In this document: positions 4,525-24,300 of the stretch, piece by piece
How positions within the stretch are numbered: the first letter of the stretch is position 1
Layout: every line of letters begins with the position of its first letter
Assembly (NCBI RefSeq): GCF_036860695.1
Contig: NZ_JAYKGJ010000001.1
Location: 868,001 to 932,000 of the forward strand
Source: Rosettibacter firmus
GTDB lineage: Bacteria; Bacteroidota; Ignavibacteria; Ignavibacteriales; Melioribacteraceae
Direction: 5' to 3'
DNA: 64,000 nucleotides
The notes under the pieces: generated by a model
What the model was told of the DNA's origin: nothing
Databases searched by the model: none
What the model saw: only the letters and a program-made list of their open reading frames with translations
Position numbers and translations under genes: made by a program

Positions 4525-4574
4525 AGTATCTCTCAACAAAATTTGTTATGTGTATTTAGTGTTTTAAAATAATA

Positions 4575-4631
4575 AACACAGATAACCAGGATTAATATCA
4601 TCAAAATCATTTTACCTGAGTTATCTGTGTT
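4575..4631 (-). terminator. Hairpin at the end of the symporter operon
   Basis: Two perfect 12-base complementary arms (4575-4586 and 4620-4631) are extended by four more pairs (4587-4590 with 4615-4618) after a one-base bulge. Reading leftward, the structure lies just past the stop of the 41-residue gene and is followed by a T-rich stretch. It probably ends the 6765-to-4640 transcript before the mannosidase gene. Confidence 0.6.
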
Positions 4632-4639
4632 AATTAAAT

Positions 4640-4878: not shown

Positions 4879-5170
4879 TTAATTCCTCCCAGCGTGCTTG
4901 ACGCTCTAATTGTTCTAAATATTCATGTTGTTTTTTTTCATATTCACCTGAAATCACTTTTAATTTTGGATCAATAATCCAGTGCATTAGCCATGTTAAG
5001 AATGCACCAATAATCAAAGTTACAAAACCCCATAAATTCAACAAAAAGCTTCCTACTGTTCCAATCATTAAAAGAATATAACAGATTGGTGATAAAATAA
5101 CAGCAAACCAATCTTCTTTATGCCATTCATCAGCTTCCCATGGTGTCCATTTTCTTCTTATAAAACTCAT
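4871..5170 (-). CDS. Small two-span membrane protein in symporter operon
   Basis: A 99-residue protein with a charged, Trp-rich N-terminus (RRKWTPWEADEWHKEDW), two hydrophobic spans (about 22-45 and 47-67) and a charged C-terminal helix (YEKKQHEYLEQLERQARW). Its ATG at 5170 overlaps the stop of the symporter gene by four bases (ATGA), so it is made together with the symporter. I do not recognise a named family. Position, size and topology suggest a small subunit that assembles with the transporter, as YhdT does with PanF or YjcH with ActP, but there is no sequence evidence that it belongs to either of those families. Confidence 0.8.
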   Translation of the reverse strand: MSFIRRKWTPWEADEWHKEDWFAVILSPICYILLMIGTVGSFLLNLWGFVTLIIGAFLTWLMHWIIDPKLKVISGEYEKKQHEYLEQLERQARWEELNG

Positions 5171-6765: not shown

Positions 6766-6851
6766 ATAGACTCCTGTTAATGTCAGTTTTCAAATAGATT
6801 AACATGAAATTATGGAGAGATTATATTGAAGTCAATAAAAATTTTCTGTGT

Positions 6852-9977: not shown

Positions 9978-10092
9978 TAATTTTTTATATAACTTCCCTC
10001 AATTATTATCGTAGTAATTATAAAATTGTTTAATGTTATTTTTAAAAATATTTTAATTAAATTTTAATATCCACAAAAAAATTTAAATAAAC

Positions 10093-10737
10093 ATGTTAAT
10101 TAAAAATTATAAACATATTATCTGGGACTGGAACGGTACAATATTAAATGACATAGACTTAAGCTTGAATATCATCAACAATATACTTAAAGAAAGAAAT
10201 CTTAACACTCTCACAAAAAACAGTTACAGAGAACTTTTTACAATTCCTGTTAAAAACTATTATGAAAAATTAGGTTTTGATTTTAATAAAGAATCCTTCG
10301 AAGAAATTGGTAAAATCTGGATTGAAGAATATGAAAAAAGAAAATATGAATGCTCACTTTACAATGGGATTGAAATTGTACTAAAAAAAATTAAAGATTC
10401 AGGAATCGAGCAATCAATACTTTCAGCTTATTCTCAGCATACACTCGAAGAAATGGTAGATTATTTTAGTCTGAGAAAATACTTCAAATACATTGTAGGA
10501 TTGGATAATATTTATGCAGCAAGCAAATTACATCTTGGAATAGATTTGATGAAAAAACTTAAAAATGGAAAAGGCGAAACGTTAATGATAGGTGATACAC
10601 TTCATGATTATGAAGTTGCCACAGAAATAGGTGCAGATTGTATATTAGTTGCAGAAGGTCATCAAAGTAAAGATATTCTAATAAAAAGCGGTGTAAAAGT
10701 TATTAATAATATTTTAGAATTAATTGAGTTTGACTAA
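10093..10737 (+). CDS. HAD-superfamily phosphatase, phosphoglycolate-phosphatase-like
   Basis: A 214-residue soluble protein. Motif I is WDWNGT with the nucleophile Asp12, motif II is a Ser in ILSAYSQ, motif III a Lys in AASKLHLG, and motif IV is MIGDTLHDYEVA with the metal-binding Asp pair. A helical cap lies between motifs I and II. The residue two after the nucleophile is Asn14 instead of the usual acid/base Asp; I believe this DWNGT form recurs in a branch of the family, so it does not by itself mean loss of activity. Probable small-molecule phosphatase; the substrate cannot be named. The gene is convergent with the M23 peptidase gene, 13 bases apart. Confidence 0.85.
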   Translation: MLIKNYKHIIWDWNGTILNDIDLSLNIINNILKERNLNTLTKNSYRELFTIPVKNYYEKLGFDFNKESFEEIGKIWIEEYEKRKYECSLYNGIEIVLKKIKDSGIEQSILSAYSQHTLEEMVDYFSLRKYFKYIVGLDNIYAASKLHLGIDLMKKLKNGKGETLMIGDTLHDYEVATEIGADCILVAEGHQSKDILIKSGVKVINNILELIEFD

Positions 10738-10750
10738 TTATACACTCATT

Positions 10751-11578
10751 TTAATTCAATTCTTTTATATCAAACAAACTCATAGGATCAATTCTTTTAT
10801 TAAACCATTGAACTCCAAGATGAAGATGAGGACTTGTAGATCTTCCGGTTGAACCAACCAATCCTATTAATTCTCCCTTTTTAACTTTTTGATTCTTCTT
10901 AACAAAAATTTTACTTAAATGTAAATAAATACTACTTAATCCCTGACCATGATCAAGCAAAACAAAATTTCCATTATAATAAAAATTTTCTCCAGCTAAT
11001 CTTACTATTCCATCTGTAATTGCATAAACAGAATCACCTTCTGCACCCTCAAAGTCCACTCCATTATGAATATTATGCGGTTCATTATTAAGAATTCTTT
11101 GAACTCCAAAATTTCCTGTAACTTTAATTGAATCGAGTGGATAGCTAAAACCAGCAGAGTATAAAGCAGTTTTTACTTTCCCAATTTTTTTACGAGCTGT
11201 TTTAATTATCCTGGTTTCATTTTTAATTCTCTTTAGTTCCCTTTTAGGCGGTCGGATATATTTTTTTTGAATTACCAAACTTTGCTCTCCGTAATCTCTC
11301 TTTTCTATCTCATATTCATATTTTAAAGTTTTTTTATTTGTCAATTTTATATTAAGAGTAAAACTTCCCTTTGCATTTCTATCGAATCCAAATATAAAAG
11401 TACCAGACTTATCAACTATTAAAGGCTTTTCATTAAGTCTTGCTGCTTTTATATTTTTGCCCTGCCCAATAATTATTCCACCAGCTTTTGCTTCACCATA
11501 AAATTTTATTTCTTGAGATAATATATTCGATATAGCCAAAAAGAAAATAAATATATAAGAAAACTTTTGATGTTTCAT
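10751..11578 (-). CDS. Exported M23-family (LytM-type) metallopeptidase
   Basis: The product is about 275 residues from the ATG at 11576-11578, which begins a clear signal peptide (MKHQKFSYIFIFF...LSQ). An upstream TTG at 11611 would add eleven polar residues before the signal peptide and is unlikely. The C-terminal third is an M23 domain: HNGVDFEG has the zinc His and Asp, IYLHLS follows, and HLHLGV carries the H-x-H pair. The N-terminal part is a beta-rich region of unknown role with a basic linker (about 110-145). M23 enzymes cut peptide cross-links in peptidoglycan. All expected zinc and catalytic residues seem present, so it is likely an active endopeptidase in the periplasm. Confidence 0.9.
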   Translation of the reverse strand: MKHQKFSYIFIFFLAISNILSQEIKFYGEAKAGGIIIGQGKNIKAARLNEKPLIVDKSGTFIFGFDRNAKGSFTLNIKLTNKKTLKYEYEIEKRDYGEQSLVIQKKYIRPPKRELKRIKNETRIIKTARKKIGKVKTALYSAGFSYPLDSIKVTGNFGVQRILNNEPHNIHNGVDFEGAEGDSVYAITDGIVRLAGENFYYNGNFVLLDHGQGLSSIYLHLSKIFVKKNQKVKKGELIGLVGSTGRSTSPHLHLGVQWFNKRIDPMSLFDIKELN

Positions 11579-11666
11579 AAAATTACTTTTTATTTGAAGT
11601 TTAGTAATCAATCCTTTACAAATGTATAAAATCTTTTATATAATTAGTAAAAAAGTATACTGAATT

Positions 11667-12932
11667 ATGATAAAAATGTTTTTAATAATAATATTTATTT
11701 CACTACTCACAATTTACCCACAGGAAATAAAAAGAGAATATTATAAAAATGGGAAATTAAAATCCGAAACCACTTACGTTAATGGAGTTAAACATGGTAT
11801 CTACAGAGAATATTATGAAAGTGGTAAACTATGGAAAGAATGGAATTTTGTTAATGGTAAAGAAGAAGGAATTTCTACCTGGTATTTTGAAGATGGTACA
11901 AAAAGTATGGAGTGGAATTATCACAATGGTAAATTAGAGGGAATATCAAGGTGGTATTACGAAACAGGTGAATTATGGGCAGAACCAAATTATGTTAACG
12001 ATGTTCAGGAGGGATTAAGTAAAACTTATTATAAAAGTGGTGCACTTCAGGCTATCTGGAGTTATCGCAATGGCAAATTAAATGGCATTTCAAAAATATT
12101 TTATGAAAATGGTCAACTCGAAGTTGAAAGAAATTATGTTGATGATAAGTTAGAAGGTGTAAGTAAAGTTTATTACGAATTTGGAGCTTTAGCTCTCGAA
12201 GCAAATTTTAAAAACAATCAATTAGATGGCAACTCATATTTTTATTATCCTGATGGTTCAATAAAAGTAATCGATACTTATTCAAATGGACAAATAGTAA
12301 AACGTGTAAGATATGATATCGGTGGTAAATTCGATAAAATAGAAGAAAGTTTTGATGAATATTACGACGAAGGAACATTAAAAGCCGAGCTTAATTTCAA
12401 AGAAGGAAAGAAAAATGGTAGAATTGTTTATTACTATAAAAATGGCTTTGTAAAATCAATTTTAAATTATATTGATGATAAATTAGATGGTGAGTGTAAG
12501 TTTTATTACGATAATGGAATAATTTCAGAAATCACAAATTTTAAAAATGATCTTAAAAATGGTTTATCAGTAAAATTCAATAATAAAGGAATTAAAATTT
12601 CAGAAGATAACTATAGCGATAACATACTCGAAGGTAAATCGAAAACTTTTTATGAAACTGGTGAACTCAAATCAGAAAGATATTTTAAAAATGGCAAACT
12701 CGATGGAACAGTAATTACTTATTATAAAAATGGAAAAATAAAAGCTGAAGAGAATTATAGAAACGGATTAAAAGAAGGCATTTCGAAGTGGTATTATCAG
12801 AATGGAATAATTTCAGATTTTTTGATTTACAAAAACAATTTATTAAATGGAAAATGTTATAGTTATAACGAAGATGGAATTGTTATTAAAGAGACAGTTT
12901 ATAAAGATGGAGAAATAGTTAATTCACATTAA
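11667..12932 (+). CDS. Exported MORN-like (YwqK-type) repeat protein
   Basis: A 421-residue protein with a signal peptide (MIKMFLIIIFISLL...YPQ). The rest is built from about 17 copies of a 22-24 residue unit of the form YYENGKLxxExNYxNGKxxG. This is the MORN_2 unit found in proteins annotated as YwqK-family antitoxins, but here it is secreted and much longer, and no toxin gene is next to it. The repeats should fold as a long beta-meander. One unit (about residue 215-230) is longer and breaks the period. Likely a structural or binding surface protein; the antitoxin label of the family should not be transferred. It stands alone between the M23 gene (opposite strand) and the coiled-coil gene. 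Confidence 0.85.
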   Translation: MIKMFLIIIFISLLTIYPQEIKREYYKNGKLKSETTYVNGVKHGIYREYYESGKLWKEWNFVNGKEEGISTWYFEDGTKSMEWNYHNGKLEGISRWYYETGELWAEPNYVNDVQEGLSKTYYKSGALQAIWSYRNGKLNGISKIFYENGQLEVERNYVDDKLEGVSKVYYEFGALALEANFKNNQLDGNSYFYYPDGSIKVIDTYSNGQIVKRVRYDIGGKFDKIEESFDEYYDEGTLKAELNFKEGKKNGRIVYYYKNGFVKSILNYIDDKLDGECKFYYDNGIISEITNFKNDLKNGLSVKFNNKGIKISEDNYSDNILEGKSKTFYETGELKSERYFKNGKLDGTVITYYKNGKIKAEENYRNGLKEGISKWYYQNGIISDFLIYKNNLLNGKCYSYNEDGIVIKETVYKDGEIVNSH

Positions 12933-13019
12933 GTTTTTCGATAAAAATAAAAGCTATTTTTAATAAAGTTTATTATCTTTAATTAAATAAATTAAATTAA
13001 TCATGGAGGGAGCATTTTA

Positions 13020-14681
13020 ATGCCAATATTTTCGTCGAAAATTAAAATGGACCTTGAAAAATTAAAAGAAGAAAATGATGAACTAAAAAATACCCTCCAC
13101 GCTTATGTTCAAAAATATTCCAGTCTTACAGAACTTAATTCACAAATTGAACAGGCAAAAAAAGAATTAGAAGAATTAAAGAATAGAATCGACGAATTAA
13201 AAAACAATGCATTAATTATTGAAGATGATATCAATGAAAAAAATATTCAACTAAATCAACTTAATGAACAAATAAAAGAACTGGAAGAAAAAAAATCTAC
13301 TCTTGAAGCCAGCACTTCTTTACAGTATGTAGACCTTAGTGAAATTTCAGAAGAAAAGAGAGATATTTTAGATGAATATGAACAACTCAAAAAGGCATAC
13401 CAGCAATTAAATGAAGAATATTTAGAACTTCAAAACGAATTCAATCAATTCAAAATACAAAAAGAAGAACAATACGATAAACCAAATATTGAACAGGATG
13501 AAGAGTTAATTAAATTAACTGAGATCCGTAACGAACTCATTAATAAAATCGAGCAATTAAAAGAAGAAGAAAGTCAAAGAAATTCAATACTGCAAAAACT
13601 TGAAGAAAAAATATCAGTATCCGAAGAAATTAAAACCAATCTTGAACAAAGCCTTAGCACACTCATTAATCAACTATCCGAAAAAGAAAAAATTTATACC
13701 GAATTTATATTCAACAGAGACGCATTATTAGAAGAAATTCGTAATATCGAAAAACAACATGATGAATATGAAATCAAAATTAACTTCAATAAAGAGCAAG
13801 CAGAAATTTTAGAAAAAGAAATAAAGGAATTAAACGAGAAAAAAAATGAAATTATTAATGAGATAAGAAATTATGAACATTTTAAAAATGAATTACAGGA
13901 AAGATTACTGATTCTTAAAAAAGAAGAAGAAAATTTAATCGAAAATATTTCCAAACAAAAACAGGAAATAGAAGAATACGAAAAAAGAAAATATGAAATT
14001 GAAAAATCTCTATTACAAATAGAAAACAATATTTCACAGGCACTCTTAAAATTTACCGAAGAAATTAATTCTTCTCAGAACAAATTAAATCTTATTAAGC
14101 AGGATATACTCAGTAAAGAAAGAGAGATCAATGAAAAAGAAAAAGTTCTACTCGAAAAAGAATCCAGAATAGCTGAATATGATGGAAACATAAAAGTTCT
14201 CCTTAAAGAAAAAAATTCCATTGAAGAATCTATATTAATGCTTAAAGAACAACAAAAAGATTTGAATGAAGAAATAATAAATCTCAAAGATTATATCACA
14301 AAACAAAAATCTTTTCTGAATGAATTAAAGTCTGAGATTCATGTTTTAATGAGTAAAAAAGACTCTCTTGAAAAAGAAATCAAACAACTATTAAAAACAG
14401 CAAACGAAAATTATTCCACACTCGATGAGAGTAAATATAAACTTGCACAGGATATAATTGAAAGTCAGGAAGAATTAGATAATCTAAAAAATCAAATCAG
14501 CACCTTAAAAGAAGAATTGAGAAATCTAAAAACAGAAAGAGCTAACGAAGAAATAAGAAAAGAAGAATATACCACCAAGATTACAGAATTAATTGCTATG
14601 GAAAATAATCTAAAGTATAAAATCTCTGAATATGAAAAACAGCTTTTAAACTTACAACAGCAAACTGAGAAATCATCTTAA
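13020..14681 (+). CDS. Long coiled-coil protein
   Basis: A 553-residue protein with a strong GGAGGG ribosome-binding site 10 bases before its ATG. Nearly the whole length (about 8-550) is charged heptad sequence rich in Glu, Lys, Leu, Ile and Asn, with no signal peptide, no membrane span and no recognisable ATPase or DNA-binding motif, so it is not an SMC protein. It resembles cytoplasmic filament or scaffold proteins. It ends 25 bases before the first gene of the acylation operon on the same strand and may be co-transcribed with it. Function unknown; coiled-coil sequence makes distant matches unreliable. Confidence 0.8.
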   Translation: MPIFSSKIKMDLEKLKEENDELKNTLHAYVQKYSSLTELNSQIEQAKKELEELKNRIDELKNNALIIEDDINEKNIQLNQLNEQIKELEEKKSTLEASTSLQYVDLSEISEEKRDILDEYEQLKKAYQQLNEEYLELQNEFNQFKIQKEEQYDKPNIEQDEELIKLTEIRNELINKIEQLKEEESQRNSILQKLEEKISVSEEIKTNLEQSLSTLINQLSEKEKIYTEFIFNRDALLEEIRNIEKQHDEYEIKINFNKEQAEILEKEIKELNEKKNEIINEIRNYEHFKNELQERLLILKKEEENLIENISKQKQEIEEYEKRKYEIEKSLLQIENNISQALLKFTEEINSSQNKLNLIKQDILSKEREINEKEKVLLEKESRIAEYDGNIKVLLKEKNSIEESILMLKEQQKDLNEEIINLKDYITKQKSFLNELKSEIHVLMSKKDSLEKEIKQLLKTANENYSTLDESKYKLAQDIIESQEELDNLKNQISTLKEELRNLKTERANEEIRKEEYTTKITELIAMENNLKYKISEYEKQLLNLQQQTEKSS

Positions 14682-14706
14682 TCATATTAATTGAAGTTAA
14701 TGATAA

Positions 14707-15417
14707 ATGAGAATACCATATAAAATTCTTTGCCTGATTTTAATAACTTACTTTTCATACATAAATTATTTATACTCTCAACAAAAAAATGACACCGTAA
14801 GATATAAAGCAAATCCAAATTACACTTTGCAAACCGCAATGTTCGATATCTATAAAACAAAGCAAGCTGATATTGTAATGCTCGGTAATTCTTTAACTGC
14901 TGGAACAAACTGGTCTGAACTACTGGGTAGAACAAATGTTGTTGCTCGTGCTATTCCAGGTGATATTCTTCCAGGATTTATTGCAAGACTGGATTATGTT
15001 ATTAAACTTAAACCAAAAATTGTTTTTATTATGGGAGGTTTAAATGATATTTATAATTGGACTCCAGTTGAAGAAATTTTTAATAACTATGTAAAAATTG
15101 TTTCAACACTAAAATCCAGAGGTATTATTCCTGTAATTCAATCAACAACTTATGCTGCAAAAGATTATGCAAAAGATTGGGGTGGTACTCCTGAAGTAAA
15201 TGGTAGCAGAAACAGAGAAATTGATAAATTAAATAAATTGTTATTTGAATATGCCAGAAAAAATAATCTTGATTTCATTGATATAACTTCTAAATTAGCA
15301 ACAAGCGATAAATTTTTACGACCAGAATTAACATGGGATGGAATTCATCTCAATGCTGAAGGTTATAAGTTGTGGGCTGAAGAAGTTGAAAAAGTTTTAT
15401 CAAAATATAAATTATAA
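14707..15417 (+). CDS. Exported SGNH/GDSL-family hydrolase, first gene of acylation operon
   Basis: A 236-residue protein with an N-terminal signal peptide (ending LYSQ) and a full SGNH esterase set: Ser62 in MLGNSLTAG, Gly in AIPGDI, Asn in GGLNDIYN, and Asp211/His214 in WDGIHLN. All catalytic residues are present, so it is probably an active periplasmic esterase or acyltransferase. The same-strand neighbours are a second, membrane-anchored SGNH protein, a fatty-acyl-AMP-ligase-like enzyme, an acyl carrier protein and an MBOAT. It could remove or transfer the acyl group that the operon exports. Stand-alone esterase activity on other substrates cannot be excluded. Confidence 0.88.
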   Translation: MRIPYKILCLILITYFSYINYLYSQQKNDTVRYKANPNYTLQTAMFDIYKTKQADIVMLGNSLTAGTNWSELLGRTNVVARAIPGDILPGFIARLDYVIKLKPKIVFIMGGLNDIYNWTPVEEIFNNYVKIVSTLKSRGIIPVIQSTTYAAKDYAKDWGGTPEVNGSRNREIDKLNKLLFEYARKNNLDFIDITSKLATSDKFLRPELTWDGIHLNAEGYKLWAEEVEKVLSKYKL

Positions 15418-15434
15418 ATCGCATGGGTAACAAA

Positions 15435-16826
15435 ATGAATAATGAAAATAAAATTAAAGAACCTTTAATCGTTATTGGATTAACCATCATTATTTTGTAT
15501 GCCATTTCCTTTATTAAAATTGATTATGAAATTGCTGGCTTTAAAATTAAAACAGTAGACATTTTTTCTGATATTAAAAAAGAAAATTCTGATAATAGTT
15601 TTCTAAAAAAAGAATTTAAATACCATCAACCTTTAAAAGCAGATTTATTGATTGGTAACTCACTAAGCTACTTAATTAACTTTTTCAAATCTTTTTATAT
15701 ATCAAATGATATTTTAGCAATACAGGGACAAAAAACTAAAATTACTGGAAACACTCAACAACTCTCCTATTTTTTTGATGCATTAAAAAACATAAAATCA
15801 AAACCTGTAAGAATAGCACATTATGGCGATTCAATTATTGAAGGTGATTTAATTTCAGCAGATATACGCGAAGCTCTTCAAAAAAAATATGGTGGGAATG
15901 CTGTTGGATGGCTTGGTATTGTATCACAGGATATTACATTTAGAACTACAACAAAACATACATACTCAGATAACTGGGAAAGTGCATCAATTTACACAAA
16001 CAATCCTAAAAAATTACCATTTGGAATTAGTGGTGAAGTAGCCATTCCAAAAGGCAATTCATGGGTACAATACGAAACAACAAAAATTAGAAAATCGCTT
16101 AAAGATTTTTCAATTGTTAAACTTTACTATTCTCACGCAAAAAGTTCCCAGATCTTTTATTCATTTGATGGGAAACCAAAACAATCTGCACAATTAAAAA
16201 CTGGCACAAACATTCAAGAATTAATTCTTAAACCAGAAGGCAAAGCTCAATCCATAAGAATCGAATTTCCTGTTGCTGAACAAGCATATGTTTATGGTGT
16301 TAGTCTCGAAAATGAATCGGGAATTTTTGTAGATAATTTTCCACTCAGAGGAAACTCTGGAGTTGATATAAATCAAATTTCACCTGCAGTTATGAAAGAT
16401 TTTTCTAAGTATCGTGATTATAATTTAATAATACTAGAATTTGGTTTGAACATTTTAGGTTCATTAACTAAAGATTATAATTGGTATGAAAGAGAAATGA
16501 CAAAAGTTATTAATCTCTTCAAGTCAACATATCCTAAAGCAAGTATAATAATGATTAGTGTACACGATAAAGCAATGAAGAGAGGTTCAAATTTTGTAAC
16601 TGATCCTGCTGTGTTAAAATTACTCGAAGCACAAAAAAATATAGCAATGAAAAATAATATTGCATTCTGGAATATGTTCGAAGCTATGGGAGGAGAAAAT
16701 TCAATGTCTAAATGGGTTAATTCAAATCCACCTTTAGCATATAAAGATTATGTTCATTTCAATGACCTGGGGGCAGCTAAAATAGCACAACTCTTTATTG
16801 AATCACTAATGAATGAATACAAATAA
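15435..16826 (+). CDS. Membrane-anchored SGNH-fold protein, DltD/AlgJ-like role
   Basis: The product is 463 residues from the ATG at 15435; an ATG at 15423 would add four residues and cannot be ruled out. One transmembrane helix (about 10-30) anchors a large extracytoplasmic domain. SGNH blocks are visible: Ser133 in HYGDSIIEGD, Gly in RGNSG, Asn in FGLNILG, and the Asp/His pair in DYVHFND. About 120 residues lie between the anchor and block I. An anchored SGNH protein beside an MBOAT is the arrangement of DltD with DltB and of AlgJ/AlgX with AlgI, where the SGNH protein passes the acyl group to the final polymer. The same job is inferred here from context. Confidence 0.85.
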   Translation: MNNENKIKEPLIVIGLTIIILYAISFIKIDYEIAGFKIKTVDIFSDIKKENSDNSFLKKEFKYHQPLKADLLIGNSLSYLINFFKSFYISNDILAIQGQKTKITGNTQQLSYFFDALKNIKSKPVRIAHYGDSIIEGDLISADIREALQKKYGGNAVGWLGIVSQDITFRTTTKHTYSDNWESASIYTNNPKKLPFGISGEVAIPKGNSWVQYETTKIRKSLKDFSIVKLYYSHAKSSQIFYSFDGKPKQSAQLKTGTNIQELILKPEGKAQSIRIEFPVAEQAYVYGVSLENESGIFVDNFPLRGNSGVDINQISPAVMKDFSKYRDYNLIILEFGLNILGSLTKDYNWYEREMTKVINLFKSTYPKASIIMISVHDKAMKRGSNFVTDPAVLKLLEAQKNIAMKNNIAFWNMFEAMGGENSMSKWVNSNPPLAYKDYVHFNDLGAAKIAQLFIESLMNEYK

Positions 16827-16837
16827 AGTATAAATAT

Positions 16838-18571
16838 ATGACTGATTTTTATTTCAATATCGAAGAAGCAAATACACTCTGGAAAAGATGGGAATTAAAT
16901 TCCGAAAGAAATCCTGAGCGTGAAGCCATTATTCACTGGGTAGCCGGTCAAGAACCTTATCGCTGGACATATCATAATTTAATTCAAACAGCAAAAAAAT
17001 TTTCGCAGGAACTATTAAAGCTTGGAATTAAACCAGGTGAAGTTTGTGCAATCATCATTCGACATAATCCATTGTTCTATCCTCTCTATCTTGGTATTTC
17101 AAGAATAGGTGCATTGCCTGCAATTTTAGCTTATCCAAATCCTCGACTTCATCCCGAAAAATTCAGACAGGGACTTGAAGGAATGTCACAACGTTCTGGA
17201 CTCGATTATATTTTAACAGAAAAAGAACTCGATCCAATGATTCGACCATTAATAGAAAATCCCAAAAGCACAATTAAAGCAGTTCATTTCCCGCTTGAAT
17301 GGGATTTATCAAATTCATTAGATGAAAAACTTGAAGAAGAGATTAAAGGAATTATAAATCAAATTAAACCAGAAGATCCTGCGTTTCTTCAACACTCATC
17401 TGGAACAACAGGGTTACAAAAGCCTGTTGTGCTTTCACATCGAGCTGTACTAAATCATGTATTAAATTTAGGAAAAGCTTTTAAACTTTCTGAAAATGAT
17501 AAAGCCTGTAGCTGGCTACCTCTTTATCACGATTTTGGATTAATAGCTGCCTTTCATATTCCTCTTGCTTATGGAATTACAACTGTTCAACTTAATCCTT
17601 TTGAATGGGTTTTAGCTCCAGTAATCTTGCTTGAAGCAATTACAAAAGAAAAAGCAACAATGTCATTCTTACCAAATTTTGCTTACAATGTTTTAGCAGA
17701 TAAAATTGATGAAGAAGAATTGGAAGGAATTGATCTTTCGAGTTTAAGAATTATTGTAAATGCAGCTGAACCTATTCGTCACGATAGCCATGAAAAATTT
17801 GTAAAAAGATTTCAGAAATATGGATTTAATCCTCTTGCACTCGCTTGTCTTTACGGAATGGCAGAAGCTACACTTGGAGTAACAGTTACAGAGCCAGGTA
17901 AACCAATTACAGAATTAGCTGTAGATAGAAATGAGTTATCGAAAGGAATAGTAAAATTTGCAGACAATAATTCTGTAGTAAGAATATGTGTTTCATCAGG
18001 AAAATTAATTGATGGATGTCAGGCAAGAATTGTTGATGACAATAGAAATGATATTCCCGATGGATTTGTTGGCGAAGTTGCTGTAAAATCTATTTCTCAA
18101 TTTGATGGCTATAGAAACTATCCAGAAAAAACTGCAGAAGTTGTTCAAGATGGCTGGTATTTTACAGGAGATTATGGATTTAGATATAATGATGAGTATT
18201 TTATTATTGGAAGAAAAAAAGATATTATAATTGTAGCTGGAAAAAATATTTATCCAGAAGATATTGAAGACGCAGTCAATTATGTCGAAGGAGTAATACC
18301 GGGAAGAGTAATTGCTTTTGGTGAAGAAGATCCAGACTTAGGAACGGAATTCGTAAGTGTTGTTGCAGAAACAAATGCTCAAACAGACGAAGAAAAGAAC
18401 AAAATTAGAATGAATATTTTAAAAGCCGGTATGAGTATTGACATTGCTATTCATAAAGTTTATTTAGTTCCACCAAGATGGTTAATTAAAAGTTCATCTG
18501 GTAAACCGAGCCGCAAAACAAACAAAGAAAGATTATTAAGCAAAACAGATCCACAAGTTTGGAGTAGATAA
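16838..18571 (+). CDS. Fatty-acyl-AMP-ligase-like adenylate-forming enzyme
   Basis: A 577-residue cytoplasmic enzyme of the acyl-adenylate family. The ATP loop is SSGTTGLQKPVVLSH (about 186-200); WLPLYHDFGLI and LPNFAYNVLADKI match FAAL-type signatures; AAEPIRHDSHEKF and YGMAEATLGV follow; the hinge and C-terminal motifs are YFTGDYG, GRKKDIIIVAGKNIYPEDIE and the active Lys region SSSGKPSRK. FAAL enzymes make acyl-AMP and load it onto a carrier protein instead of CoA. The next gene is such a carrier, overlapping by one base (TAATG), and the MBOAT follows. It fills the place of DltA but its signature motifs look fatty-acyl rather than D-alanine type. The true substrate is not determined. Confidence 0.88.
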   Translation: MTDFYFNIEEANTLWKRWELNSERNPEREAIIHWVAGQEPYRWTYHNLIQTAKKFSQELLKLGIKPGEVCAIIIRHNPLFYPLYLGISRIGALPAILAYPNPRLHPEKFRQGLEGMSQRSGLDYILTEKELDPMIRPLIENPKSTIKAVHFPLEWDLSNSLDEKLEEEIKGIINQIKPEDPAFLQHSSGTTGLQKPVVLSHRAVLNHVLNLGKAFKLSENDKACSWLPLYHDFGLIAAFHIPLAYGITTVQLNPFEWVLAPVILLEAITKEKATMSFLPNFAYNVLADKIDEEELEGIDLSSLRIIVNAAEPIRHDSHEKFVKRFQKYGFNPLALACLYGMAEATLGVTVTEPGKPITELAVDRNELSKGIVKFADNNSVVRICVSSGKLIDGCQARIVDDNRNDIPDGFVGEVAVKSISQFDGYRNYPEKTAEVVQDGWYFTGDYGFRYNDEYFIIGRKKDIIIVAGKNIYPEDIEDAVNYVEGVIPGRVIAFGEEDPDLGTEFVSVVAETNAQTDEEKNKIRMNILKAGMSIDIAIHKVYLVPPRWLIKSSSGKPSRKTNKERLLSKTDPQVWSR

Positions 18572-18804
18572 TGATTTCACCAGAATTAAAACAGGTAATA
18601 TTAAAACAACTTAACCTCGATGATTTCGATATTAAAGATGAAACCACTGCACCAGAAGTTCCGGGATGGGATTCACTAAATCACATTAATATTATTCTTG
18701 CAATCGAAGAACATTTCAAAGTTAAATTCAAAAGTTATGAATTGCTTCGCTTAAGATGCGTTGGCGATTTACAAAAACTTCTTGATTCTAAATTAGGTAA
18801 ATAA
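18571..18804 (+). CDS. Acyl carrier protein of the acylation operon
   Basis: A 77-residue acidic protein with the phosphopantetheine site PGWDSLNHI, where Ser35 would carry the prosthetic group. Length and helix pattern fit an acyl or peptidyl carrier protein. Its ATG overlaps the stop of the ligase gene by one base, so the two are made together. It is not the housekeeping fatty-acid ACP (which has a GADSLD-type site and a different gene neighbourhood). The likely role is to receive the acyl group from the ligase and present it to the MBOAT at the membrane, as DltC does for DltB. Confidence 0.92.
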   Translation: MISPELKQVILKQLNLDDFDIKDETTAPEVPGWDSLNHINIILAIEEHFKVKFKSYELLRLRCVGDLQKLLDSKLGK

Positions 18805-18816
18805 TATTGATTAATT

Positions 18817-20316
18817 ATGCTGTTTAATTTTGACCTCTATAAAATTTACGAACAATTAAAATTTATTCCTGACTCTCCTCTTATTTTCAGTACAAGCTTA
18901 TTCCTAATTCTCTTTTTCTTCTTTCTTCTTATCTATAATCTTTTTATAAAAAATAAAACTCTAAGACTTGCCTGGTTAATCCTTTTCTCATTTTATTTTT
19001 ATTATAAATCTGCAGGATATTATGCTGGAATTCTTATTGTTTCTGCTGCAGTAAATTTTCTATCTGGTAAATGGATTGCATCAACAGAAAAATTTTCTCT
19101 GAAAAAATTATATCTTCTTCTGGCTTTAATTATTAATCTTGGAATTCTTAGTTACTTCAAATACACCAATTTTATTTTACAAATATTTCATGATATAACT
19201 AATTCGCAATTTGAACCTCTTGATATTTTTCTTCCAATCGGAATTTCTTTCTACACATTTAAATCTCTAAACTATGTTTTTGATATTTACTTTGATACAT
19301 TAAAACCTACAAACAGTTTTAGAGATTTTTGTGTTTATGTATTTTTCTTCCCAAATATATTGGCTGGACCAATCGATCGTGCTTCTGATTTCTTACCACA
19401 AATAGATAAAGAACCATTTATTTCAAAAGAAGATCTCGGCAGAGCAATATTTCTAATAATTCTTGGTTTATTTAAAAAAGTAGTAATTGCAGATTATATA
19501 AGTATCAATTTTGTTGATCGTGTTTTTGATTTCCCATTGAGATATACTGGCATAGAAAACCTTCTCGCTATTTATGGATATGTTCTTCAAGTCTATTGTG
19601 ATTTTTCTGGTTACTCCGATATGGCAATTGGAATTTCATTAATGTTTGGTTTCAGATTAATGGAAAACTTCAACTATCCATTTAAAGCAACAAGTATTGC
19701 TAACTTCTGGCGTAGATGGCACATTTCACTTTCAAAGTGGTTACTTGATTATTTATTCAGACCTCTTCAAATGAAATACAGAAACTTAAGAGTTTATGGA
19801 AATATGATTGGTATCTTTATTACTTTTTTGATTTGTGGTTTATGGCATGGTGCAGGCTGGAATTACATCTACTGGGGTGCTATGCATGGATTTATGATGT
19901 CTTTTGCACTTCTAATTCAAAAACCAAAAACAAAATTTTATAATTTACTAAAGATTAATAACACTAAATTTCTCACCATCATTCAAACAATTATTACCTT
20001 TCATCTTGTTGCAATTTCATTTATGATTTTTAGAAGTAGCGATATTCAAACTGTATTTGATATGTTCTCACAAATATTTACATTCTTTCATGGTGAAGTA
20101 TTCATCCAGTTTATTGAAAGATTGCCATTAATCTCTGGTTTAATTTTCCTGGGTTATTTATTCCACTTTATGCCATCAAAATTAGAGAACATGATTATAA
20201 ATCAATTTGCAAAAACTCCCGCTATCGGGAAAATCATAATTCTGGTAATTGCTATCTGGATTGCTGCACAATTTAAAACTGCAGATATTCAACCATTCAT
20301 TTATTTCCAATTCTGA
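18817..20316 (+). CDS. MBOAT-family O-acyltransferase (AlgI/DltB-like)
   Basis: A 499-residue inner-membrane protein with about 11-12 spans. It carries the family core FPNILAGPIDRASDF, the block IANFWRRWHISLSKWL, and GLWHGAGWNYIYWG with the catalytic His344. MBOAT proteins of this branch (AlgI, DltB, PatA) take an acyl group from a cytoplasmic donor and deliver it through the membrane to an outside acceptor. Here the donor should be the acyl carrier protein coded 12 bases upstream. The acceptor may be a polysaccharide, lipid or the anchored SGNH protein. It is the last gene of the operon; 193 non-coding bases follow before the stressosome genes. Confidence 0.93.
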   Translation: MLFNFDLYKIYEQLKFIPDSPLIFSTSLFLILFFFFLLIYNLFIKNKTLRLAWLILFSFYFYYKSAGYYAGILIVSAAVNFLSGKWIASTEKFSLKKLYLLLALIINLGILSYFKYTNFILQIFHDITNSQFEPLDIFLPIGISFYTFKSLNYVFDIYFDTLKPTNSFRDFCVYVFFFPNILAGPIDRASDFLPQIDKEPFISKEDLGRAIFLIILGLFKKVVIADYISINFVDRVFDFPLRYTGIENLLAIYGYVLQVYCDFSGYSDMAIGISLMFGFRLMENFNYPFKATSIANFWRRWHISLSKWLLDYLFRPLQMKYRNLRVYGNMIGIFITFLICGLWHGAGWNYIYWGAMHGFMMSFALLIQKPKTKFYNLLKINNTKFLTIIQTIITFHLVAISFMIFRSSDIQTVFDMFSQIFTFFHGEVFIQFIERLPLISGLIFLGYLFHFMPSKLENMIINQFAKTPAIGKIIILVIAIWIAAQFKTADIQPFIYFQF

Positions 20317-20509
20317 TTTAGTGGAATTATAAACTACGAAGTCATTGGCATTTAAGCATCATCTAAACATAAATATTCCTGCAAATCTTTTTTCATTCTC
20401 ATCTATATTTAAGTAAACTAAAGTCACACTGTGAATATTTTAGATTGTAATTATTTTTACAATTATTTATGTTGTATTAAAAATAAAACAATAAACTTTC
20501 GGGGGCTTT

Positions 20510-20914
20510 ATGGCAGAAAAAAATAATGAAATAATGAATATTCCAATCTCTATTATATGGGAAGGAATTCTCTTCTGCCCTATCTGGGGAATTCTTGATT
20601 CTCAAAGAACACAGCTTATAATGGATGCGGTGCTTGATAAAATTGAGTCGACTCAATCAAAAGTATTAATCATAGACATAATTGGTGTTGTTACTGTTGA
20701 TAGTGCTGTAGCCAATCACTTAATTAAAATAACAAAAGCCACAAAATTAATGGGCTGCGAAAGTGTAATATCAGGTATTTCACCTTCAGTAGCACAAACA
20801 ATAGTAAATCTGGGCATTGATTTAAGTGGTATAATTACAAAATCAACTATCAAAGAAGCTCTTGATTTTGCATTCAAAAAGCTAAACTTAAAAATTATAT
20901 CTGACCAAAAATGA
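20510..20914 (+). CDS. RsbR-type STAS protein without sensor domain (stressosome)
   Basis: The product has 134 residues and starts at an ATG preceded by GGGGG. It is a single STAS domain. The segment DIIGVVTVDSAVANHL followed by VAQTIVNLGIDLSGI closely resembles the RsbR C-terminal domain of the Bacillus stressosome. Where RsbR has its first phospho-Thr, this protein has Ser65; the Thr of AQT (97) is the candidate second site. The usual N-terminal sensor half of about 130 residues is absent, so this protein probably builds the stressosome shell without sensing by itself. It overlaps the next STAS gene by four bases (ATGA). In the known system such proteins with RsbS hold RsbT until stress. 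Confidence 0.85.
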   Translation: MAEKNNEIMNIPISIIWEGILFCPIWGILDSQRTQLIMDAVLDKIESTQSKVLIIDIIGVVTVDSAVANHLIKITKATKLMGCESVISGISPSVAQTIVNLGIDLSGIITKSTIKEALDFAFKKLNLKIISDQK

Positions 20915-21282
20915 TAACACAAAAAAAATTGATTACAAGTAATGTAATTAACAATTATTTAAATGTAACATTACCTAATGTAATAACTGATGATCAATAT
21001 GAAATAATTAAAAAAGAAATTCTTGAAAAAACTGCATCAATGAATATTAAAGGTGTAATATTAGATGTATCTGCAACTAATTTTATCGACTTGAGTATGC
21101 TACACTTATTTAAAAATATTATTGATGCGATTAAAGTTCTGGGTAAAAAAGGGATAGTGATTGGTATGAATTCATCTTCAGTCTCTGCACTTGTTCATTT
21201 AATTGATGAAGATCTAAATATTCCAATTGCTACGTGTTTTGATGAAGCTGTTCTAATTATTAATCAAGATTATGAAAATTAA
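20911..21282 (+). CDS. rsbS: RsbS-type STAS protein (stressosome), divergent phosphosite
   Basis: A 123-residue single STAS domain between RsbR-like and RsbT-like genes, which is the place of rsbS in known modules. The core VILDVSATNFIDLSMLHLF aligns with the RsbS region around its phospho-Ser. The Asp-Ser pair of RsbS reads Asp60-Leu61-Ser62, so the acceptor Ser is either lost or moved by one residue. Expected role: core scaffold that binds RsbT and is released on phosphorylation. Overlaps: 4 bases with the gene before and 11 bases with rsbT, so the subunits are translationally coupled. Identification relies on fold pattern plus position. Confidence 0.8.
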   Translation: MITQKKLITSNVINNYLNVTLPNVITDDQYEIIKKEILEKTASMNIKGVILDVSATNFIDLSMLHLFKNIIDAIKVLGKKGIVIGMNSSSVSALVHLIDEDLNIPIATCFDEAVLIINQDYEN

Positions 21283-21694
21283 AAGAAAAAAGATATTCAA
21301 CATTAAAATTAACAATGATAATTCGTACCAGGAAGTTATTCAAGAAACATTAAAATATTGTTTAAAACTTGGATTTAAAAAAAAGTATAGCAACGAATGT
21401 GCAATTATTTCAGCTGAATTAGCTACCAATATTATTAAATATGCATCTTTTGGCGAAATAACATTAAATAAAATTACAAAGGGAAAAGAGAAGGGCATCG
21501 AAATAATTGCAAAAGATAAAGGTCCTGGCATTGAAAATACAGAATTAGCATTGCAACAAGGGTATTCTACAGGAAAAAGTCTTGGTATTGGTTTACCAGG
21601 AGTAAAAAGAATGGTTGATGAATTTGTCATTAAATCAATATTAAACAAAGGAACAACAGTTAAAATTATAAAATGGGAAAAGTCAAATCACTAA
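21272..21694 (+). CDS. rsbT: RsbT-type serine/threonine kinase
   Basis: A 140-residue GHKL-fold kinase. The N box is ISAELATNIIKYA with the metal-binding Asn53; the glycine boxes are KDKGPGIEN and SLGIGLPGVKRMVDEF, the latter close to the RsbT consensus. RsbT phosphorylates the STAS proteins RsbR and RsbS, leaves the stressosome, and binds a downstream partner. In Bacillus that partner is the phosphatase RsbU; no rsbU, rsbV, rsbW or sigma-B-like gene is in the window. It overlaps the RsbS-like gene by 11 bases and the RsbX-like gene by 22 bases. All ATP-site motifs are intact, so it is likely an active kinase. Confidence 0.92.
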   Translation: MKIKRKKIFNIKINNDNSYQEVIQETLKYCLKLGFKKKYSNECAIISAELATNIIKYASFGEITLNKITKGKEKGIEIIAKDKGPGIENTELALQQGYSTGKSLGIGLPGVKRMVDEFVIKSILNKGTTVKIIKWEKSNH

Positions 21695-22263
21695 TTGATT
21701 ACTATTTTATAATCAAACCACATCCTGAAATGAATGTAAGCGGTGACACATGTATTATCTTAAATAATAAAGAAGGATTATTTTTTTCATTAATTGACAT
21801 AGCAGGACATGGAAAACGAGCTTATGAACAAGCCGAGTTTTGTAAAGATTTTATAACAAAAAACTACGATGATAATATCATTGAATTAATAGAGCAAATT
21901 CATTTAAAAGCTAAGAACCATTTCGAACTTGTTGGCTTTTTCATGAAATTAATCAAACATGAAAAAAGAATAAATTATATTAATATCGGTAACATAAAGG
22001 TAAAAATTTTTAATAATAATAAAATTCATTTAAATAACACCGAAGGAATAATTGGCTACATTTTACCAAAACTTACATTAAACGAATTCAATTTTACTGA
22101 TCATAAGATTCTTATTGCATGCACTGATGGGATTCACAGCTTCTTTGAGTTCAATCCAGTGATTTTTAATAATAATTATTCTTCAAAAGATATTTGTAAT
22201 TATGTAATAAATAAATATTACAAAAATACTGATGATGCAGCTTGCCTTGCGATTAAAATATAA
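21673..22263 (+). CDS. rsbX: RsbX-type PP2C-like phosphatase
   Basis: A 196-residue SpoIIE/PP2C-fold phosphatase. Metal-binding motifs are visible: VSGDT near residue 25, LIDIAGHGKRA (about 40-50), IACTDGI (about 145) and NTDDAACLAI at the C-terminus. Size and lack of extra domains fit RsbX, which dephosphorylates RsbR and RsbS and resets the stressosome, rather than RsbU, which has an N-terminal RsbT-binding domain. It overlaps rsbT by 22 bases and is followed after 6 bases by the kinase gene. It is therefore the feedback part of the switch; its direct substrates are inferred. Confidence 0.87.
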   Translation: MGKVKSLIDYYFIIKPHPEMNVSGDTCIILNNKEGLFFSLIDIAGHGKRAYEQAEFCKDFITKNYDDNIIELIEQIHLKAKNHFELVGFFMKLIKHEKRINYINIGNIKVKIFNNNKIHLNNTEGIIGYILPKLTLNEFNFTDHKILIACTDGIHSFFEFNPVIFNNNYSSKDICNYVINKYYKNTDDAACLAIKI

Positions 22264-22269
22264 TGAAAA

Positions 22270-23871
22270 ATGAAACTGATAGAATTAAATATTGATAGTA
22301 ACTATTCAATAATTGATGCACGTGAAAAATTCTTTGTTCTACTAACTGACTTAGGATTTTCTGTTAAAAAAGCAGCAAAAATTTGTGTCGTAATTTCTGA
22401 GATTACACGCAGTATTTACAAAAAATATATTAATAAAAAATTAATCATAACATTAGAAGATATTAATAATTTCTATTCTTTAAATATCCAGTTCCCAAAA
22501 TGTTTTGACATGGAAAAACTTAATTATTTCTTTGATGATTCAAGGATTATTAAAAAAAATAATAATGAATATCAGATTGCTTCCCTTTTGATTGATAAAC
22601 ATAAAATCCCATCCTTAAAAAAGTTTGTTGATTCAGAAAAAGAAAAATTAATGTACATTATAAGTGCTAATAATGTAGATGAACTAAAGAGAATAATTGA
22701 AGAAAAAACATCTGAGATTATTTATTCTTCAAAACTATTAGACTCAATTTTAAATAACATGGGCGAAGGAGTCTATGTAGTTGATATGAATTCAAACGCA
22801 ATTTATGTTAACAATACCTGTCTTGAACTATTAGGATATGACGAAAATGAATTAATAAGTAATAATATGCACCTATTAATTCACCATCATAAAAAAGATT
22901 TATCTGAATATCCTGCTGAAGAATGTCCAATATTAAAATCCATTCAAAATAAAAATTCTATTTTAGTTTCAAATGAAGTTTTCTGGAGAAAAGATGGCAC
23001 TTGTTTCTCTGTAGAATATAATGCTACACCTTTAATTGCAGAAAACAAAGTACTGGGAGGTGTAATTATTTTCAGAGATATTTCTGAAAGAATAAAAGCA
23101 GAAGAAGCCATAAAAAAATTAAATGAGGAACTTGAACAAAAAGTAATAGAAAGAACTCAAAAGCTACTCGAAGCTAATAAAGAATTAGAATCTTTCAGCT
23201 ACTCTATATCACACGATTTAAGAGCACCACTACGACATATTATTGGATTTATTGAACTGCTATCAAAAAAATATACTTTTGAAGATAAAGCTGCTCAATA
23301 TTTTAATATTATTACTACAACTGCAAAACGAATGTCTCAATTAATTGAAGACTTATTAAATTTTTCAAGAATTGGTAGAGCATCACTTAAATTAACTGAA
23401 GTTGATTTGAATGAGATTCTTCGATCATTATTAACATTTTTTAAAGATGATATTGAAAAAAGAAACATTCAAATTAACATACAAACATTACCAAGAATTT
23501 ATGCTGATTACATTTTAATACAGCAAGTCTGGCAGAATTTAATTTCAAATGCAATAAAATATACAAGCAAATGCAGTAATCCGTGCATTAATATTGGTTT
23601 TAAAAAGAATAAAAATTTTTATACTTTTTACATAGAAGATAATGGTATTGGCTTCGATATGAAATACATTGATAAATTATTTAATGTATTTCAAAGACTC
23701 CACATTGACGAGGAATTTGAGGGAACAGGAATTGGACTCGCCATTACAAAAAAAATAATTGAAAAACATGGCGGAAAAATTTGGGCAGAAGCCAAAATTA
23801 ACGAAGGTGCTAAATTTTATTTTACATTACCAATAGAATACATTAATGAAAAAAACAATCTTAATAATTGA
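22270..23871 (+). CDS. Histidine kinase with N-terminal RsbT-like domain and PAS domain
   Basis: A 533-residue cytoplasmic protein with no membrane span. Residues 1 to about 110 follow the RsbT/anti-sigma ATPase pattern (IIDAREKFFVLLTDLGFS, then VVISEITRSIYKKY), but the N-box Asn is Ser48 and no glycine boxes follow, so this part should not bind ATP normally. A PAS domain (about 155-275), a coiled coil, HisKA with His315 in SISHDLRAPLRH, and HATPase_c with NAIKYT, DNGIGFD and GTGIGLAI complete it. The gene lies 6 bases after rsbX in the same operon. The likely reading is that the pseudo-RsbT part connects this kinase to the stressosome, replacing RsbU as output. The next gene is a receiver protein, overlapping by 26 bases, and is its probable phosphate acceptor. 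Confidence 0.87.
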   Translation: MKLIELNIDSNYSIIDAREKFFVLLTDLGFSVKKAAKICVVISEITRSIYKKYINKKLIITLEDINNFYSLNIQFPKCFDMEKLNYFFDDSRIIKKNNNEYQIASLLIDKHKIPSLKKFVDSEKEKLMYIISANNVDELKRIIEEKTSEIIYSSKLLDSILNNMGEGVYVVDMNSNAIYVNNTCLELLGYDENELISNNMHLLIHHHKKDLSEYPAEECPILKSIQNKNSILVSNEVFWRKDGTCFSVEYNATPLIAENKVLGGVIIFRDISERIKAEEAIKKLNEELEQKVIERTQKLLEANKELESFSYSISHDLRAPLRHIIGFIELLSKKYTFEDKAAQYFNIITTTAKRMSQLIEDLLNFSRIGRASLKLTEVDLNEILRSLLTFFKDDIEKRNIQINIQTLPRIYADYILIQQVWQNLISNAIKYTSKCSNPCINIGFKKNKNFYTFYIEDNGIGFDMKYIDKLFNVFQRLHIDEEFEGTGIGLAITKKIIEKHGGKIWAEAKINEGAKFYFTLPIEYINEKNNLNN

Positions 23872-24277
23872 CGATAACCCAAACGATACCTTCTTAATGC
23901 TCGAAGCTTTAGATGAAATTACAAAAAAGTATGAAGTAAAAATATTCAATGACAGCGAAAAGGCTCTCGAGTATCTAAATTCAAAAAATTCCAATGAGAA
24001 TTTTATAATACCATCCCTTATTCTGCTTGATGTCAAAATGCCAAAAATAAATGGATTTGAAATTCTAAAAACAATTAAATCAAATAATGCACTTAAGTTT
24101 ATTCCTGTTGTAATGTTTTCATCATCAAAAGAAAAATCAGATTTAGAAAAATGTTACATGCTGGGTGCAAATGCTTTTGTTGTTAAACCAACAAACTTTG
24201 ATGAATTTATTAATACATTAAAATCTATTGGAAATTTCTGGCTTGAAATAAATGAACTTCCACTCTCTTACAATTAA
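23846..24277 (+). CDS. Single-domain response regulator (Rcp1/CheY-like)
   Basis: A 143-residue stand-alone receiver domain. The acidic pair is DDNPND, the phospho-Asp is in LILLDVKMPKING, the Thr/Ser switch residue is in VVMFSSSK, and the Lys is in AFVVKPT. Rcp1-like receivers are usual partners of phytochrome-type and HDLRAP-box kinases such as the one just upstream, and the two genes overlap by 26 bases. There is no output domain, so it must pass phosphate on or act by protein contact, perhaps with the hybrid kinases that follow. Confidence 0.93.
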   Translation: MKKTILIIDDNPNDTFLMLEALDEITKKYEVKIFNDSEKALEYLNSKNSNENFIIPSLILLDVKMPKINGFEILKTIKSNNALKFIPVVMFSSSKEKSDLEKCYMLGANAFVVKPTNFDEFINTLKSIGNFWLEINELPLSYN

Positions 24278-24300
24278 TCAATTTTATAACGAGGGTAGAG

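Follow-up and report, generated by a model that had tools for sequence, protein, structure and literature searches.

The window analysed here is a stretch of 64,000 nucleotides of Rosettibacter firmus DNA (contig NZ_JAYKGJ010000001.1, positions 868,001 to 932,000 of the forward strand). Positions 14707–20316 of this window hold an operon of five + strand genes that appears to activate an acid, load it onto a carrier and pass it across the membrane. The host organism is taken here to be Gram-negative. The features of the operon, numbered from the first base of the window, are as follows.

14707..15417, + strand: SGNH1, an exported-looking GDSL protein of 236 residues (Pfam Lipase_GDSL_2)
15423..16826, + strand: SGNH2, a membrane-anchored, Ape1-like two-domain SGNH protein of 467 residues (Pfam Lipase_GDSL_2, sub-threshold)
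15423..15575, + strand: N-terminal transmembrane (TM) anchor of SGNH2, residues ~1–51
16838..18571, + strand: fatty acyl-AMP ligase (FAAL)-type acyl-AMP ligase of 577 residues (Pfam AMP-binding)
17900..17977, + strand: presumed FAAL-specific insertion of the ligase, residues ~355–380, within the YGxxE-to-TGD spacing
18571..18804, + strand: dedicated acyl carrier protein (ACP) of 77 residues (Pfam PP-binding)
18817..20316, + strand: MBOAT O-acyltransferase of 499 residues with catalytic His344 in a WHG motif (Pfam MBOAT)
19756..19812, + strand: predicted carrier-docking segment of the MBOAT, residues 314–332, aligned with the DltC-binding helix of DltB
20296..20313, + strand: C-terminal hexapeptide FIYFQF of the MBOAT, an FXYXXF acyl shuttle with Tyr496 as acceptor

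The intergenic gaps from SGNH1 to the MBOAT gene measure 5, 11, −1 (a one-base overlap) and 12 bases. An earlier account made from the letters alone (the sequence-only reading) had described five same-strand genes with gaps of at most 17 bases, encoding two SGNH proteins, a ligase with the motifs LPNFAYNVL and WLPLYHDFGLI, a carrier and an MBOAT. All five + strand open reading frames (ORFs) were recovered with these tighter gaps, both motifs are present in the ligase, and Pfam assigns the products to the expected families, weakly so for SGNH2 (28.3 bits against a cut-off of 32.9). The expectation that relatives would keep the gene order is also upheld. Since the ligase, ACP and MBOAT genes are contiguous in all 22 wide loci of orthologous ligases (L002, L006 and L039–L058), this arrangement is not due to chance, and in each of the 17 wide loci that have a full SGNH2 gene the ligase and carrier genes lie between it and the MBOAT gene. 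The exception to this order, genome G486, is considered below.

The shuttle tyrosine at the C-terminus of the MBOAT is kept in all 51 MBOAT rows collected. As set out in part of a published account, PatA auto-acetylates the tyrosine of its C-terminal FXYXXF motif and PatB takes the acetylated hexapeptide as donor, while in Dlt systems the motif is carried by the microprotein DltX (PMC12148441). In the operon the motif is on the MBOAT, with no DltX carrying it, and an FXYXXF end is absent from the four TM microproteins found in relatives (L047, L049, L054 and L120). The only NCBIfam match of the MBOAT among those listed is nevertheless to DltB (TIGR04091), at 187.5 bits against a cut-off of 375. 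In one relative, L119 (G507), the MBOAT ends in PPQYFNY, with the tyrosine kept and the first and last phenylalanines of the hexapeptide altered.

In a tree of 47 MBOAT rows, from which the long rows L046_10, L067_5, L068_9 and L069_9 were omitted, the 33 carrier-linked rows form a single clade apart from the 14 carrier-free rows, with a support of 100/100 and recovery in all 200 bootstrap trees. Alignment columns that separate the two groups (shared by ≥90% of one group and ≤10% of the other) number 23, and ten of them fall within the 19 residues 314–332 (hypergeometric 3.5 × 10−10, a guide only, columns and rows being non-independent). This segment aligns with the helix and loop of DltB that bind DltC, for which contacts through Met302, Val305, Ile306, Met309, Lys312 and Arg317 of DltB are given in a section of PMC11035591. 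All 14 carrier-free rows have the sequence LGGN at this segment, whereas LGG occurs in none of the 33 carrier-linked rows, which have Q(M/I/F)xxR in its place, with Gln318 in 32 rows, a hydrophobic residue at 319 and Arg322 in all 33, and an arginine or lysine at 325, the equivalent of Lys312, in 30. On the strength of this alignment, residues 314–332 are predicted to form the carrier-docking segment. The segment reads PLGGNQK in the L105_7 row of the alignment and PLQ in the very divergent, carrier-linked MBOAT of L046.

The ligase is identified as FAAL-type from its sequence because FAALs head the list of its solved relatives and the FAAL insertion is present. In a sequence search of the PDB the best scores are those of 3kxw (210 bits), which we take to be an FAAL, and 3pbk (176 bits, named a fatty acyl-adenylate ligase), followed by 7r7g, part of a polyketide synthase (PKS). 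FadD23, FadD28 and FadD32 entries are within the 18 best sequences, which are not purely FAALs: McyG and an assembly-line adenylation domain (6ulw/6ulx) are also among them, as are entries named simply acyl-CoA synthase or polyketide synthase. A 4-coumarate CoA ligase appears only from rank 19 (98 bits). The spacing between YGxxE and TGD is 104 in the ligase as against 73–75 in all seven AMP-binding enzymes from related genomes used for comparison, which are presumed CoA ligases; it is 105–115 in four other FAAL-type rows, the remaining 13 of these 17 giving no match to the regular expression. An insertion is visible in the alignment in all five orthologues shown, and the extra stretch at ~355–380 is presumed to occupy the FAAL-specific insertion site. 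Such an insertion has been described, and CoA rejection does not depend on it alone according to PMC8460268. Among the NCBIfam matches listed (25 of 106) there is no DltA model, and the best is PRK09192 (fatty acyl-AMP ligase) at 329.5 bits against a cut-off of 600, which does not place the ligase in a named NCBIfam FAAL subfamily. The ligase model predicted from an alignment of six sequences was too poor to use (mean pLDDT 42), and the pocket therefore gives no reading of chain length. The nearest named ligase records are from Melioribacter metagenome-assembled genomes (93% and 90% identity).

The ACP carries the motif GWDS, with Ser35 as the predicted phosphopantetheine site. It is one of two PP-binding matches in the genome, the other and stronger one lying elsewhere, and a single phosphopantetheinyl transferase, of the ACPS family, is found. 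Both the FAAL-type ligase and the dedicated carrier adjoining it had been proposed in the sequence-only reading and are supported by these searches. Beside the ACP–MBOAT pair of one relative, L113 (G485), an opposite-strand cluster (9532–14980) encodes an AMP-binding enzyme together with another carrier-like protein, whose PP-binding score of 20.2 bits is just below the cut-off of 20.8.

SGNH2 is Ape1-like in sequence and in predicted fold. A four-row SGNH2 profile searched against the PDB at an E-value of 0.01 matches the three Ape1 sequences only (profile E-value 1.5 × 10−22), and superposition of the SGNH2 model gives Z scores of 27.5 (4k3u, 328 residues), 26.6 and 26.5 for the three Ape1 entries, the next non-Ape1 entry scoring 15.2. 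The model has a mean pLDDT of 64.3, with much of the SGNH and inserted domains above 70 and the anchor, linker and some active-site loops below 50. PatB chains score 12.0–12.8 amid general SGNH folds, and the operon proteins have no Pfam match to DUF459 (PatB) or to the DltD family, Pfam giving only GDSL families. Ser137, Gly310, Asn343, Asp442 and His445 of SGNH2 are invariant in 18 rows, as are Ser62, Asn113, Asp211 and His214 of SGNH1 in 17. The nearest relatives of SGNH1 are sialate O-acetylesterases. The block II glycine, which SGNH1 of the operon keeps, is replaced by serine in 12 of the 17 SGNH1 rows; PatB is described in part of PMC12148441 as lacking this glycine, with serine in Neisseria gonorrhoeae and asparagine in Campylobacter jejuni.

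SGNH2 is favoured as the final transferase on two grounds, namely its membrane anchor, which matches the modelled anchoring of PatB, and its more frequent presence compared with SGNH1. A full SGNH2 gene lies in the cluster in 17 of the 22 wide loci, its TM piece alone in three and neither in two, while SGNH1 occurs in 16. In L047, L049, L054 and L120 a lone microprotein of 51–87 residues resembling the TM anchor of SGNH2 adjoins the ligase or carrier gene. A search of seven genomes in which the MBOAT gene has no full SGNH2 beside it found one elsewhere in five: it is anchored in G321 and G106 and has no anchor match in G356, G491 and G135, where a TM piece lies near the MBOAT gene. In G058 only a copy with internal stops was found, and in G131 none. 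At the four lone-anchor loci an intact catalytic part is thus present elsewhere in three genomes, the fourth being G058.

A scan of 149 genomes of the class (ligase E-value ≤ 10−40) matched 16, comprising 12 orthologues (57–100%, window included) and four large multidomain proteins (30–36%); a scan of 395 genomes of the phylum (E-value 10−60) matched 26, comprising 24 orthologues (55–100%, window included) and two multidomain proteins. All 24 orthologues of the phylum scan belong to one taxonomic order. G131, from another family of the class, has a ligase match in the class scan only, and a scan of genome contigs returned five close relatives. MBOAT matches (E-value ≤ 10−20) are found in 64 of the 76 genomes of the order, and 20 of these loci were opened, chosen mainly from genomes without the ligase. 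The carrier-free layout SGNH1–SGNH2–MBOAT is seen in L103–L110 and L117, and a ligase-free layout SGNH–ACP–MBOAT in seven genomes with eight MBOATs (L111 twice, L112, L113, L114, L116, L120 and L121), L120 retaining only the TM piece of SGNH2. L115, L119 and L118 have SGNH–FAAL–ACP–MBOAT, that of L118 being split over two contigs with the ligase and SGNH2 at the end of the other contig, and in L102 the MBOAT has no adjoining carrier or SGNH gene. Bacteroidales relatives without ligase or carrier show SGNH–SGNH–MBOAT. In the tree the MBOATs with a carrier and no ligase nest among ligase-bearing rows within the carrier-linked clade, several basal forks being weak, and this nesting suggests that the ligase was lost from their operons. 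Tandem genes occur in some relatives: two MBOAT genes behind SGNH1–SGNH2, without carrier or ligase, in L103 (G113, 7995–10960) and L108 (G029, 7977–10942), and two orthologous FAAL genes before the ACP and MBOAT genes in L049 (G135, 4326–7838).

A further set of 23 MBOATs, 21 of them paralogues within the order and two from plasmids, was used to examine the docking segment, and a 70-row MBOAT tree was obtained by a quick search without bootstraps. Fourteen of the 23 have LGG or FGG at the segment, and none of these has a carrier-profile match within four genes; one of them, L172, has a ligase-like gene four genes off. Among the nine that lack LGG, a carrier lies within two genes in two (L168 and L170), the dedicated ACP is encoded elsewhere in the genome in four and none was found in three. 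The motif alone was rejected as a predictor of the donor on account of these three; lack of the motif fits carrier use without proving it. The MBOATs without LGG in other carrier contexts are those of L168 and L170 and that of a Metabacillus plasmid. In L168 (G513, 4062–8522) an orthologous FAAL and ACP accompany another MBOAT, 41% identical and ending in FIYVLF, together with another GDSL protein, and the ligase and carrier here have the look of a portable module. L170 (G491, 3725–8542) is a second kind of carrier-linked MBOAT with a different ACP, in one run of genes for the end of an amino-acid adenylation domain, a GNAT-like protein, the ACP, a methyltransferase-like protein, the MBOAT and an SGNH-like protein; the ACP has a Pfam PP-binding match, the adenylation-domain end has none, and the other labels were given by eye. 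The plasmid of Metabacillus sp. B2-18 (Bacillota; L152, 2054–6382) has genes for an ACP, an AMP-binding enzyme, an MBOAT ending in FIYGGF and a fourth protein without a Pfam match in a row.

Outside the phylum the search for carrier-fed MBOATs covered plasmids and barely sampled other phyla. Of 135 records with plasmid MBOAT matches 13 were opened, and one, that of Metabacillus, has ACP and AMP-binding genes adjoining the MBOAT gene; LGG is present in each of the seven plasmid MBOATs for which no carrier was seen in the vicinity (L067–L069, L149–L151 and L153). Six of 286 plasmid records with a ligase match were opened (H1, H2, H3, H5, H15 and H37), and tblastn with the MBOAT and ACP of the operon gave no match within their 6-kb flanks. 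L070 (Tistrella), with an annotated MBOAT that gave no match in the ORF script, was left out. In L165 (G411, 6004–12440) two MBOATs without LGG flank an AMP-binding enzyme with an AMP-binding_C domain.

Among MBOAT–SGNH systems the operon is nearest to the O-acetylpeptidoglycan (OAP) kind (PatA/PatB/Ape1), and it lacks several of the features that define Dlt. With OAP systems it shares an MBOAT with a C-terminal FXYXXF shuttle and a conserved His344, a pair of SGNH proteins of which one is Ape1-like, and ligase-free SGNH–SGNH–MBOAT relatives, both within its family and among Bacteroidales. Unlike them, it encodes an FAAL and a carrier of its own, has no LGGN segment and bears a TM anchor on its Ape1-like protein. 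Dlt systems (DltA, DltB, DltC, DltD and DltX) also pass from an adenylating ligase through a dedicated carrier to an MBOAT and then an SGNH protein, and the site at which DltB binds DltC corresponds in the alignment to the predicted docking segment; however, in the operon an FAAL replaces the D-alanine ligase, the shuttle sits on the MBOAT and not on a DltX, the SGNH proteins have no DltD-family match and the host is taken as Gram-negative. The likeness to Dlt put forward in the sequence-only reading thus holds for the supply half, where ligase and carrier correspond to DltA and DltC, and fails for the membrane half, which was expected to resemble DltB and DltD and is instead PatA/AlgI-like. 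That reading had also set a Dlt operon against PatA/B systems, and here it has to be revised: the Ape1-like SGNH protein and the ligase-free relatives of Pat/Ape type point to a Pat-type machine with a Dlt-type supply. The AlgI/AlgJ/AlgX and WssFGHI systems share the MBOAT with a C-terminal shuttle and an SGNH partner but differ in having no ligase or carrier, an acetyl donor and other SGNH families, as described in part in PMC12148441 and PMC9487903. Stand-alone FAAL–ACP pairs such as JamA/JamB similarly place an FAAL beside its cognate carrier, but in the operon the acyl-ACP would serve an MBOAT rather than an assembly line.

These features are probably best explained by a carrier-fed, Gram-negative form of MBOAT–SGNH envelope acylation in which a dedicated ACP replaces acyl-CoA as the acyl donor. 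The FAAL would activate a carboxylic acid with ATP, most probably a fatty acid or another acid than acetic, and load it onto Ser35 of the holo-ACP. The acyl-ACP would then dock on the MBOAT from the cytoplasmic side, at residues ~314–332, and His344 would assist passage of the acyl group across the membrane to Tyr496 of the C-terminal shuttle. The shuttle could swing to the anchored SGNH protein, for which SGNH2 (Ser137) is favoured, and SGNH2 would pass the acyl group on to a polymer of the envelope, peptidoglycan being the likeliest. The other SGNH enzyme, SGNH1, would be either an esterase or an alternative transferase. Protein families, catalytic residues, the shuttle motif, gene linkage, the split into clades and the altered docking segment are all read directly from sequence, whereas the acyl-ACP donor, the acyl group, the parts played by the two SGNH proteins and the acceptor are inferred. 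A carrier-fed MBOAT–SGNH system outside Dlt departs from the statement of a 2025 paper (PMC12148441) that MBOAT–SGNH pathways other than Dlt have no such carrier, acyl-CoA evidently being their donor. The word MBOAT has no occurrence in the main text of a review of FAALs (PMC11837247), and the titles and abstracts listed in the literature search, with most subscription journals outside it, showed no carrier-fed MBOAT outside Dlt.

A more specific proposal can be offered only tentatively, namely that an OAP lineage switched from acetyl-CoA to an FAAL-charged carrier and esterifies peptidoglycan with a non-acetyl acid, fatty or other; that the cytoplasmic MBOAT segment following RWH(I/M)(S/T)L, LGGN-type or not, reports the donor; and that the switch was repeated in the main clade, L168, L170 and the Metabacillus plasmid. 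The order in which the operon occurs holds carrier-linked MBOATs with fused shuttles beside close carrier-free relatives, and such matched pairs could be used to find the determinants of acyl-ACP as opposed to acyl-CoA use. The envelope is predicted to carry an acyl ester, perhaps attached to peptidoglycan, which could be sought by mass spectrometry without genetics.

Several observations weigh against a carrier-fed system of this form. When the long rows are kept in a 51-row tree, the carrier-free group still lies on one side of a branch with support reduced to 83/100, and the clustering of separating columns at residues 314–332 reflects a single tree branch in the main clade. Absence of LGG does not in itself indicate a carrier, none having been found for three such MBOATs (L163 and both in L165); the carrier profile may miss other carriers. 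The position equivalent to Glu40 of DltC, which pairs with Lys312 and Arg317 of DltB, is asparagine in all 21 ACP rows. The FAAL is not indispensable to the ACP–MBOAT pair, since the ACP gene of seven genomes has no ligase gene next to it. In six of these the rest of the genome holds no orthologous ligase, its matches scoring just 57–89 bits, and the seventh, G486, has an orthologous ligase (57%) apart from its ACP–MBOAT pair. This separate FAAL (L147, 5980–12801) is followed by a 1666-residue ORF. With regard to the final transfer, Ape1 itself is an esterase and not a transferase, and most SGNH1 rows, the operon's own excepted, show the block II serine of one PatB; for these two reasons the preference for SGNH2 as the transferase is tentative.

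As to the acceptor, peptidoglycan is favoured by the carrier-free SGNH–SGNH–MBOAT relatives in Bacteroidales, by the O-acetylation that accompanies OAP clusters in Bacteroides and by the Ape1 fold of SGNH2. According to parts of PMC1199599, OAP clusters, one type of which has ape genes 5′ of pat, are borne by Bacteroides species among others, and peptidoglycan O-acetylation reaches 69.4% in B. fragilis and 27.0% in B. thetaiotaomicron. An exopolysaccharide, lipid or protein acceptor is somewhat unlikely by comparison. MBOAT–SGNH pairs have also been linked to the modification of alginate, cellulose and secondary wall polysaccharides (PMC12148441), and a neighbour checked in one relative, L052, is an NTP-transferase of the sugar-nucleotide kind. 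However, SGNH2 is specifically Ape1-like, the searched window genes (6852–26247) give no Pfam match to a glycosyltransferase or flippase, nor to a PKS or nonribosomal peptide synthetase (NRPS), and the neighbours include proteins of peptidoglycan type, namely an M23 peptidase (10751–11611) in the window and an NlpC/P60 protein beside the MBOAT of L058.

Plain O-acetylation of peptidoglycan, with ligase and carrier supplying acetate by another route, is less likely still. It would suit the OAP character of the membrane half and SGNH2 and the fact that this MBOAT is the only Pfam MBOAT match in the genome, and the relatives that keep the ACP without a ligase imply that the acyl group need not depend on the FAAL. 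With acetyl-CoA available, however, acetate would need neither an FAAL nor a carrier, the carrier-free relatives in the same family manage without both, and the acids in the table of the FAAL review, as far as that source was consulted, run from C4 to C18 (PMC11837247). A true Dlt system esterifying D-alanine or another amino acid to a polymer is very improbable: the parts list is identical and DltB is the one NCBIfam match listed for the MBOAT, but that match has half the cut-off score, the ligase is FAAL-type, no DltD-family match is found and the shuttle sits on the MBOAT. Placement here by accident of a ligase and ACP from an unrelated lipid or natural-product pathway is equally hard to credit, for although the review deals with FAALs that act in PKS/NRPS-type pathways (PMC11837247) and the G486 ligase stands apart, the three genes are contiguous in every wide locus, the MBOATs linked to a carrier make up a single clade whose docking segment is altered and the window genes searched include no PKS or NRPS. 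A carrier-fed envelope acylation thus remains the preferred explanation, with a non-acetyl group and a surface polymer as its probable acyl group and acceptor.

A gene for a 553-residue coiled-coil protein without a Pfam match (13020..14681, + strand) ends 25 bases before SGNH1 and is possibly the first gene of the transcription unit. It lies 5′ of SGNH1 in ten of the 22 wide loci (L002, L039–L044 and L051–L053) and was rejected as a component of the mechanism on this count. On the 3′ side a gap of 193 bases follows the MBOAT gene. Promoter-like and terminator-like sites around the operon show no excess over shuffled sequences, and a sigma-70 promoter or a terminator was accordingly rejected as an operon boundary. 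Neighbours in the window also include a HAD hydrolase, a MORN-repeat protein and the M23 peptidase, which is encoded on the − strand and has relatives near the cluster in L002, L039, L043, L044, L052 and L053. Downstream, STAS and two-component proteins are encoded in a run (20510–26247) of two STAS proteins, an HATPase_c_2-type protein, a 196-residue protein, a PAS histidine kinase, a response regulator and a hybrid kinase. The 196-residue protein has no Pfam match and looks phosphatase-like by eye, and the run as a whole resembles a partner-switching signalling module.

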